Assembly: GCF_004366375.1 (NCBI RefSeq)
Contig: NZ_SOEF01000006.1
Location: 1-64,000, forward strand
Direction of reading: 5' to 3'
Length of the DNA stretch: 64,000 nucleotides
Source of the DNA: Halanaerobium congolense
Lineage (GTDB): Bacteria > Bacillota > Halanaerobiia > Halanaerobiales > Halanaerobiaceae
The notes below the pieces were generated by a model. It saw only the letters and a list, made by a program, of their open reading frames with translations, was not told the origin of the DNA and ran no database searches. This document shows, one piece after another, positions 41,652-44,141 of this stretch. Position 1 is the stretch's first letter. Every line of letters starts with the position of its first letter. Position numbers and translations under genes: made by a program.

Positions 41652-41784
41652 ATGCTGGAAGAAAAATTAGCGGCTGGTTCCAGCTGGATTCACAAACTTG
41701 ATCCCCGGGCCAAATTAGTGGTTGGATTATTTTTTTCTTTTCTAATTACATTTAGGACAAATGTCCGGTCCTATTCTTCCTGAT
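41652..41784 (+). pseudogene. cbiQ: cbiQ (EcfT), 5' fragment before the insertion
   Basis: MLEEKLAAGSSWIHKLDPRA is the typical N-terminus of the EcfT membrane coupling subunit, followed by the first membrane segment KLVVGLFFSFLITF. At 41755 the gene meets the inserted element and the frame ends after a few foreign codons. The rest of cbiQ resumes at 43476. Removing the element does not restore the frame exactly: the two halves are one base out of phase, so there is an extra indel as well. Confidence 0.85.
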
Positions 41785-41807
41785 TCTTAGTATTTCAAAT
41801 TAATCAA

Positions 41808-42581
41808 TTATTTATCGTTATCAGAATCAAAATATTCAGGATGATATTTTTCTATAAGCTTCCTGTATTGTTTGATAACAGAAGCTCCTCTTCCTGTCAT
41901 ATGTTTGATCTGGGTTGTGCTTATACCGCGCCTGATAAGGAATTTAACGCGTTCATAGTCTTTGATATATCTATCTACAGCATTTAATGAATGATTTGTT
42001 TTTCTGGCTATATCAGGTGGCTGAACCTTTTGCTCATAAAGCTCTATTATCGCTTTTTTATGAGTGGTTCCACGACCCATATCCAGTATATAACCTTTAA
42101 GAGGTAACACATCATCATGACTATTATGGTATTCACCAATACGCTTTGAAATAGTTGCTGTAGAACGGTTCATTATTGCTGCTAGTTCTTCAACAGTTAG
42201 CATAGCACCCTGTTTTTTAGCTGCTTTAGTCAGCCTGGCAATACGGATCATATCATGTTCTGTTTTGGATACATTCTGTCTTTTTAATTCTATATCTTCC
42301 TCGGTAACATAGGGAAGTTCAATAACTTCCTGTTTATATTCTTCACGTTTTTGCCCCAGTTTTGGTTTGTTATTCTGGTCGGAAGTACTAATCCAGCTTA
42401 AACTTCCAAACTGATTGGTCTTTTTACGAGGATGATATTTATACTCTAATTCAACTATATCGTTGGCTATTAATTCCAGTATTTTATGGCTGCCAAGTAA
42501 TTTATATTCACTCTCTAAAAGCTCAATGATAGCCTGCCTGAAAGTCTTTTTATCCAGGTTAGCAAAAGGGTCCTGTCTCAT
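41808..42581 (-). CDS. HTH protein of the insertion element, second gene (DUF1670-like)
   Basis: A 257-residue protein, paralogous to the product of the gene before it. N-terminal 60 residues are charged (KTFRQAIIELLESEYKLLGS); then comes an HTH (MLTVEELAAIMNRSTATISK, near 135); then the shared motif DMGRGTTHKKAIIELYEQ; then a second HTH-like segment PPDIARKTNHSLNAVDRYIK and a third near ISTTQIKHMTGRGASVIKQY. The resemblance to DUF1670 is from memory. Its ATG overlaps the stop of the first gene (ATGA), preceded by AAGGGGGT. Function unknown; transposition or control of the element is inferred. Confidence 0.75.
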   Translation of the reverse strand: MRQDPFANLDKKTFRQAIIELLESEYKLLGSHKILELIANDIVELEYKYHPRKKTNQFGSLSWISTSDQNNKPKLGQKREEYKQEVIELPYVTEEDIELKRQNVSKTEHDMIRIARLTKAAKKQGAMLTVEELAAIMNRSTATISKRIGEYHNSHDDVLPLKGYILDMGRGTTHKKAIIELYEQKVQPPDIARKTNHSLNAVDRYIKDYERVKFLIRRGISTTQIKHMTGRGASVIKQYRKLIEKYHPEYFDSDNDK

Positions 42582-43399
42582 TTTATGACCCCCTTTTTTG
42601 CCTCAGTTTTTACTGAAGCTTTTTTCTCAGCTATGTTGACTATATCAGCAATACGCTCTTTATGTTCAGAGCTATTATATTTAAAATACAGTTCGGTATA
42701 TTCTTTAACCAGTCTTTCTGAGATACCAACTATATGAGCTGTTTCTTTAATTGAAAGCTTATTCTTTATTGCCAGCAATACACGACCAAAATCATTGATA
42801 TATCTTTTAATTGCCCCAGGAGAATGCCTGGTTTTTCGCTGTATTTCAGAGTAGGTGTTATATTCCAGATACAGTTCAATTATCTTTGTTTTATGGGACA
42901 CTCCAGGTCCAATATCCTGATATGTACCTCTGGTAGGGACAGAAAAGCCCTTACCTTTAAGCTTTTTTATATCACGTCTGATGGTTCTGGGGGATACCTC
43001 CAGTATATCAGCCAGATCCTCCTGGGTTAAAAGACCACCCTGTTCCAGTGATTCTTCTGCCATTCTTAGAATTTTAACTCTTCTGAGAGCTGATTTATTC
43101 TCTATTCTAAAGAGTGTTTTATCCTCTTTGGTTATTGATTTAGTCAGGGTTACCTGAACCTTTGGTAAATCTTCTAGAACTGGACCGTGTTTTGCTTTCT
43201 TAGAGATTACAGTCTTAACTATTTTATCTTTACTTTCATGATATGATGGATCATAATGTTTAAGTTGGTAAACTTCATTAGCAGCTTCTACAATTGCTTT
43301 TGCTTCACGCGGTGAATATTCAAATAGTTCTTTAAGAATGTATTCAAATTGACTATCTAAAGTTTTAACTTTTACACGATCAAGTTCAGTTTTAGGCAT
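42578..43399 (-). CDS. HTH protein of the insertion element, first gene (DUF1670-like)
   Basis: A 273-residue protein with the same plan as its neighbour: an N-terminal region (LDSQFEYILKELFEYSPREA), an HTH in LLTQEDLADILEVSPRTIRR near 130, then DIGPGVSHKTKIIELYLEY, TYSEIQRKTRHSPGAIKRYI and a last HTH-like LSIKETAHIVGISERLVKEY. The common motif D-x-G-x-G-x-x-H-K-x-x-I-I-E-L-Y links the pair. The ATG follows AAGGGGGAA and the two genes are translationally coupled. No nuclease or recombinase motif is visible. It could be a novel transposition protein, a DNA-bending partner or a regulator. Confidence 0.75.
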   Translation of the reverse strand: MPKTELDRVKVKTLDSQFEYILKELFEYSPREAKAIVEAANEVYQLKHYDPSYHESKDKIVKTVISKKAKHGPVLEDLPKVQVTLTKSITKEDKTLFRIENKSALRRVKILRMAEESLEQGGLLTQEDLADILEVSPRTIRRDIKKLKGKGFSVPTRGTYQDIGPGVSHKTKIIELYLEYNTYSEIQRKTRHSPGAIKRYINDFGRVLLAIKNKLSIKETAHIVGISERLVKEYTELYFKYNSSEHKERIADIVNIAEKKASVKTEAKKGVIK

Positions 43400-43469
43400 T
43401 TGTTGTTCCCCCTTAACTATATCTTATATCAAACTCTTTTGTTAGTCGAACTTGATTAGGGGCGGACAA

Positions 43470-44141
43470 ATGTCCTTATTTGCTTTATCAAATGAATTAA
43501 AGACTTTGAGCCTGTTTTTTGCTTTAGCAGTGATTTTAATAATTTCAATTGAAATTGATTTTAAATATCTCTTAAAAAGACTCCTGCTGTTTAATTTATT
43601 TATTTGTTTAATCTGGATTTTTATTCCGTTTACTTTTCCTGGCAAAGAAATTTTGACTGTCTGGCAGTTTTCGGTTTCCAGAGAAGGGCTTTTCTATGCT
43701 TTGAAAATCACTTTAAGTTCAAACAGTATTATCTTATTAGTGATTTCATTGTTATCTACTTCTCCAGTTCTGGATTTAATCCATGCAATGAGCAGGCTCC
43801 GGATTCCGCCAAAACTAATTTATTTATTATTTTTTGTTTATAGATATTTATATGTAATAAAAAAGGAATTTAATACAATACATCAGGCTATGCTACTTAG
43901 AGGATTTAAGGCAAAAACTAATCTGCATACCTATAGATCATATGCTTATTTGATTGCAATGTTATTGATAAAAAGCTACGAAAGATCCAAAAAAGTTTAT
44001 CAGGCAATGATCTGCAGGGGTTTTAAAGGAGATTTTGTAATGATAGATCATTTTAAATTCAAACAAAAGGACTATCTGTTTATAATAGTTTCATCTCTGT
44101 TTTTAATATTTTTATTAGCTATTGAAAAGGGATTGATTTAA
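43470..44141 (+). pseudogene. cbiQ: cbiQ (EcfT), 3' part after the insertion
   Basis: The remaining 220 codons of EcfT: four or five membrane segments and both coupling-helix motifs, LLRGFKAKTNLHTYRSYA and MICRGFKGDF (R-G pairs that contact the ATPase). The reading frame is open from inside the element. ATG at 43470 is part of the terminal GGACAAATGTCC and has AGGGG seven bases upstream, so a shortened EcfT without its N-terminus and first helix might still be translated. Whether that is functional is doubtful. Confidence 0.75.

Follow-up and report, generated by a model that had tools for sequence, protein, structure and literature searches.

The cbiQ locus and the borders of the element

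We analysed a 64,000-nucleotide stretch of DNA from Halanaerobium congolense (contig NZ_SOEF01000006.1, positions 1 to 64,000, hereafter the window), in which the gene cbiQ is split by an element that is an insertion sequence in form and differs from one in its gene content. The sole genes between its ends are two coupled frames, A and B, encoding paralogous proteins (29-31% identity) of the Pfam family DUF1670 (PF07900). Orthologues of cbiQ are continuous where the gene of the window is interrupted, in agreement with a preliminary description of this DNA, made from its letters alone, which had proposed an insertion between two cbiQ halves. The same description had reported two intact genes overlapping by ATGA, each preceded by a GGGGG ribosome-binding site, as we also read in the sequence. 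The locus comprises the following features (lengths in base pairs, bp, or amino acids):

41652..41747, plus strand: 5' fragment of cbiQ, aligns with intact orthologues
41746..41747, no strand: TT dinucleotide of the target, to the left of the element, occurring again at 43480-43481
41748..43481, no strand: whole element, 1734 bp, or 1732 bp plus one target TT
41748..41766, plus strand: B-side end, ACATTTA followed by the palindrome GGACAAATGTCC (GGACATTTGTCC in most other copies)
41808..42581, minus strand: gene B, 257 amino acids, DUF1670, ATGA overlap with A (PF07900, E-value 7e-55)
42578..43399, minus strand: gene A, 273 amino acids, DUF1670, first of the pair (PF07900, E-value 3e-53)
42589..42593, minus strand: ribosome-binding site GGGGG of gene B, which falls within the 3' end of gene A, read from the sequence
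43408..43412, minus strand: ribosome-binding site GGGGG of gene A, read from the sequence
43464..43481, plus strand: A-side end, palindrome GGACAAATGTCC followed by TTATTT, identical across all full copies
43482..44141, plus strand: 3' part of cbiQ, aligns with intact orthologues

The palindrome GGACAAATGTCC lies at 41755-41766 and again at 43464-43475, and inward from the two palindromes we found the 19-base inverted repeat of the preliminary description (GGACAAATGTCCGGTCCTA and GGACATTTGTCCGCCCCTA, exactly four mismatches). That description had set the insertion at 41755-43475; the insertion is real, but these edges are too narrow. ACATTTA and TTATTT are also missing from the empty sites, so that the insert is 7 and 6 bp longer than the palindrome edges and extends over 41748-43481, a length of 1734 bp given by the exact join of the orthologous empty cbiQ sites. 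Left ends read TTACATTTA-GGACAWWTGTCC in all copies and right ends read GGACAAATGTCC-TTATTT in all full copies; about 60 and 82 bp at the two ends of the element are non-coding.

To compare occupied and empty sites, the three interrupted genes of the genome that holds the window were aligned with orthologues in congeneric species, yielding 19 empty-site sequences (four for cbiQ, six for a MupG/DUF871-like gene and nine for a TIGR03915-like gene, the last two named by eye without a domain scan), all of which join exactly. In each of them the left flank, with TT as its last bases, runs straight on to the base that follows TTATTT in the occupied gene, giving back an open reading frame; the insertion can be written TT[ACATTTA...TTATTT]. 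A TT stands before the left end at all seven sites that were found without selecting for TT (the window, C10, C2, C26, L026, L027 and the viral-collection contig L089/L138). The element therefore inserts at TT and removes no bases; any duplication is limited to the 2 bp TT.

Copies in the genus and solo ends

A search of the same genome (2.83 Mb in 93 contigs) found three full-length copies (the window; C10, 95%; C2, 94%) and one 363-bp left end (C26). The full copies lie in unrelated genes and are alike over their whole 1721 bp at 94-95%; multiple copies at unrelated loci with clean empty sites are what is generally expected of an insertion sequence. Since GGACAWWTGTCC occurs at 11 places in this genome against one for a reversed control, and since the copies share the whole 1721 bp, these occurrences are not due to chance. 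Among related genomes, a search for the ends and for the protein pair retrieved further copies, the named carriers belonging to Halanaerobium, as well as gene pairs scattered in Bacillota. The terminal inverted repeats are kept between copies, both in the element and in the longer forms described below. One distant copy, at the start of an ssb gene, encodes a B protein that is 71% identical and still ends in TTACACTTA-GGACATTTGTCC-GCCC (ACACTTA plus palindrome). The preliminary description had allowed for edges created by assembly or for a match to a known transposase family, and neither was found; an assembly edge or artefact is ruled out, as the junctions are internal to contigs and are seen again in unrelated genes and other genomes.

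Two incomplete cases were also recorded. The C26 copy (L004, G000:C26:10547-10909) consists of the left 363 bp only, followed by unrelated sequence. The gene search found no DUF1670 gene in genome G006, where full left ends at G006:C27:72-92 and G006:C48:72-92 (L180, L184) meet contig ends; DUF1670 elements are probably present there but lost in assembly.

Species of the genus further carry solo scars of 25-27 bp, TTACATTTA-GGACAAATGTCC-TTATTT, in which both outer ends enclose a single palindrome and which resemble solo long terminal repeats in form. Solo ends were located in intergenic sites (L015 at G000:C1:37022-37048, L173, L176, L178, L181, L182 and L186), and scars occur also in genomes without a DUF1670 gene (G005, G008 and G011). 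One solo of the window's own genome, between rpmI and rplT (names assigned by eye), is absent in 11 relatives, and another is common to G008 and G006 with a clean absence of about 25 bp in G000, G002, G004, G005 and G007. Deletion between the two 12-bp palindromes, whether by element-encoded excision or by slippage, would explain the scars; alternatively, they may be a miniature mobile element. Within the window's genome, palindromic ends are confined to this element and the solo scars.

A differently arranged palindrome was seen at L025 (G000:C50:11371-11382), beside an IS110-like gene, where inner left-end sequence faces outer TGGTATTATAT. L024 and L183 read TTATATTTR-palindrome-TGGTATTATAT, and L175 was grouped with L025. 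This group suggests a second type of end and possibly an inversion between palindromes, or else an IS110 insertion at the palindrome.

Sequence, selection and predicted structure of the A and B proteins

Both proteins match PF07900 over nearly the full profile length and far above its cut-off (186.2 and 180.8 bits against a gathering threshold of 25). DUF1670 is a family without assigned function, and its name carries no link to mobile elements. The other Pfam matches of A and B were generic helix-turn-helix (HTH) models, and an NCBIfam scan of the two proteins gave no match above cut-off. We calculated ratios of non-synonymous to synonymous changes (dN/dS) from four intact copies in different genomes or at different loci, leaving out the C2 copy, the frames of which are open. 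Ratios were 0.03-0.12 for A and 0.05-0.08 for B. Because these values are low and the changes fall mostly at third codon positions, both proteins have been kept by strong purifying selection during the spread of the copies.

AlphaFold models were built from a six-sequence alignment and had a mean predicted local distance difference test score (pLDDT) of 60.2 for A and 62.9 for B. The region modelled with confidence consists of a winged HTH and, after it, two more HTH units; the first ~90 residues have a pLDDT below 50 over most of their length. VIA-align returned mainly HTH and winged-helix matches at residues about 98-257, none with Z >= 8; Foldseek searches with the models returned no match at an E-value of 0.001 or lower, the low-confidence N-terminal part being in effect untested by them; and a PDB sequence profile search returned nothing useful. 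The several HTH segments noted in the preliminary description were thus recovered in profiles and models. The nuclease fold for which it had proposed looking was not, the matches being mainly of the HTH and winged-helix type, with ~90 N-terminal residues at low confidence. An alignment of 19 proteins gives R112, L124, G158, D162, G164, H169, I186, H192 and Y200 as the invariant residues of A, all in the HTH region, and the DxGxGxxHK motif forms the lead-in to the second HTH.

Searches for known catalytic domains agree with the earlier view of an element made only of two coupled HTH genes within palindromic ends and without a recognisable transposase. Neither Pfam nor NCBIfam gave a match above cut-off to a DDE triad or RNase H-like domain, with N-terminal models of low confidence; no DEDD transposase domain matched A or B; and neither protein has a resolvase or phage-integrase catalytic domain, the matches being of HTH type only. 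A DDE (RNase H-like) transposase might still have diverged too far for these profiles, or be split between A and B, in which case the element would be an ordinary insertion sequence. Such an enzyme would suit the inverted ends, a possible short duplication as in IS630/mariner (2 bp), HTH segments weakly resembling those of IS630 and the N-terminal part that is of low confidence in the models. We nevertheless find it improbable, as that part has ~90 residues per protein, fewer than a full RNase H-like core, and the HTH region contains all of the invariant R112, D162, H169, H192 and Y200 of A. IS630/Tc1-mariner elements share a 2-bp target, HTH domains and inverted ends with the element, which differs from them in targeting TT rather than TA, in having two genes and in the lack of a recognised DDE domain; the NCBIfam IS630 match of A and B is far below cut-off (13.7 and 14.7 of 100 bits).

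DUF1670 gene pairs in other genomes

We detected DUF1670 in 41 of 398 genomes of the phylum Bacillota and in one of 14 control genomes, that of Methanosarcina acetivorans. Many matches are tandem pairs with overlapping frames in a longer form, in which A has about 510-570 amino acids and in most cases two DUF1670 units and B has about 420-450 amino acids; beyond DUF1670 the long-form proteins had only HTH-type matches in Pfam. The long pairs are flanked by inverted repeats that differ between lineages:

ATATRATGGATTAAA: inverted repeat, three genomes (L077, L082, L085)
ACCGGTWTARCCCGTAAGG: inverted repeat, L080; its B-end is repeated in L053
AACCGCCAWTAACC: inverted repeat, L075
CGTCRTGACG + GCCCC: palindrome, L076; recalls GGACATTTGTCC + GCCCC of the Halanaerobium right end

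Genome G223 has three copies that are 98.6-100% identical over their last 353 bp and then pass abruptly into unrelated flanks, and L085 is a deletion derivative in which the start of A is fused to the end of B with both ends kept. As is usual for repeats, many copies either border on a contig end or fill a short contig entirely (L045, 3155 bp; L052, 3004 bp). To judge from these loci, the association of the gene pair with ends is probably general. The preliminary description had asked whether the pair is always adjacent and always within the same ends: many tandem pairs do lie within inverted repeats, but the repeats are lineage-specific, and one gene is unpaired.

This single unpaired DUF1670 gene has the same neighbourhood in two species of one genus (L061 83-727 and L062 585-1247; G148 and G276) and is perhaps a domesticated copy. 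Of a fixed chromosomal location without the ends, which the preliminary description had raised against its own proposal, this conserved place in two species is the only, and weak, instance. We also noted that the B-ends of several long-form groups read TTAT-CT, with A-ends often at CT (L045 = G234:C47; L066/L148/L149 = G223), a hint that CT might replace TT as the core; the L077 group does not fit, and we make no claim on this point.

Cargo of phages or plasmids was considered and rejected, as searches of A and two long-form proteins against plasmids and of B against phages returned nothing. Viral contigs yielded just one relative, a fragment where a contig begins; further scans of viral sequence, two of them using long-form proteins and one an end pattern, gave no other relevant match. 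A defence system was likewise rejected, the PADLOC matches being weak and HTH-only.

Comparison with known insertion sequences

IS21 (istA/istB) and ISNCY resemble the element in being short, in carrying transposition genes only, in their overlapping frames and in their inverted ends, whereas the element lacks a DDE integrase or AAA+ ATPase, encodes HTH-only proteins and duplicates at most 2 bp. A dinucleotide core at both junctions, as in IS110/IS1111 and IS607, would look like the junctions of the element, which has neither a DEDD nor a serine recombinase and whose non-coding parts of about 60 and 82 bp leave little room for a bridge RNA of the IS110/IS1111 kind.

Like the palindrome-ended elements (PATE) of IS200/IS605, the element has short palindromes close to its ends and inserts without losing target bases. 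Together with the asymmetric outer sequences and junctions that need no duplication, these features would suit single-strand transposition in which insertion occurs 3' of TT without duplication and A and B replace or assist TnpA. We hold this to be very unlikely. Neither A nor B matches Y1_Tnp, and nothing further is encoded between the ends, so that the element, unlike PATE, is without TnpA; its long forms carry true non-palindromic inverted repeats, absent from IS200/IS605, and its solo scars have a single palindrome. The IS605 of Halanaerobium hydrogeniformans, moreover, has longer end hairpins that differ from those of the element (PMC7290912).

We found no mention of DUF1670 or PF07900 in the open-access papers searched; such an element may be deposited in ISfinder as unclassified.

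Mobility and its likely agents

The element is mobile, multicopy and precisely bounded, and selection has maintained both of its proteins. On balance we lean towards an insertion sequence that moves itself and belongs to a family not yet described, with the coupled DUF1670 pair as its mobility proteins. A and B, probably joined in a hetero-oligomer, would bind the palindromic inverted ends through their three-HTH arrays, bring these ends together, and then excise and insert the element at TT, either alone or with the help of a host enzyme. The cutting site might reside in the N-terminal domain of ~90 residues or in some stretch of the HTH region that has escaped recognition, and the solo copies (outer left end, one palindrome, outer right end) would be footprints of excision between the two palindromes.

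Alternatively, A and B could be DNA-binding accessory or regulatory proteins of an element moved in trans by an unrelated host transposase or recombinase. No catalytic domain is recognised in either protein, insertion with a core of at most 2 bp resembles the products of several recombinases, and the genome has candidate helpers in two intact genes for Y1 (HUH) transposases and one IS110-like gene. Yet neither Y1 transposase locus has these ends, no other transposon of this genome carries a sequence within 3 mismatches of TTACATTTAGGACAWWTGTCC, and both A and B are under purifying selection. The long-form repeats, moreover, vary by lineage while the gene pair is constant, which would call for a new helper each time. 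Mobilisation in trans therefore seems rather unlikely to us. We favour the pair as the mobility machinery because the trans route needs a different helper for each lineage with its own repeats, and because many lineages with different inverted repeats have nothing but this pair between the ends, purifying selection acts on it, and no other element of the genome bears these ends. Where the preliminary description had left the choice between a hidden divergent transposase and movement in trans, the former thus appears preferable, with catalysis by the pair putative.

Several observations weigh against assigning mobility to the pair. No catalytic motif or nuclease fold was found in A or B, and HTH is all that the models show with confidence; the missing fold is weak evidence, because the models are poor (mean pLDDT 60 and 63). 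Mobility is read from compared sequences, and for the long forms no empty site turned up. Since every unselected site has TT just before the left end, a 1732-bp element with a 2-bp TT duplication would account for the junctions equally well as one of 1734 bp without duplication. More tentatively, the pair may drive transposition with none of the catalytic folds known so far (DDE, HUH, serine, tyrosine, DEDD), be it through a new nuclease chemistry hidden in an HTH-rich protein or as end-pairing proteins that rely on a general host enzyme for the cutting.

Implications

To our knowledge, a few catalytic folds account for nearly all prokaryotic insertion sequences. The family described here is widespread and recently active, and its sole genes are an uncharacterised DUF pair. 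With exact ends, target, empty sites and intact copies in hand, it is directly testable. It would either give DUF1670 its first function and add a transposase family, or point to new chemistry or the hijacking of a host enzyme for DNA transposition. Should the absence of a known catalytic fold hold true, the element would represent a categorically new way of moving DNA that is widespread in Bacillota and has reached one archaeon or more.
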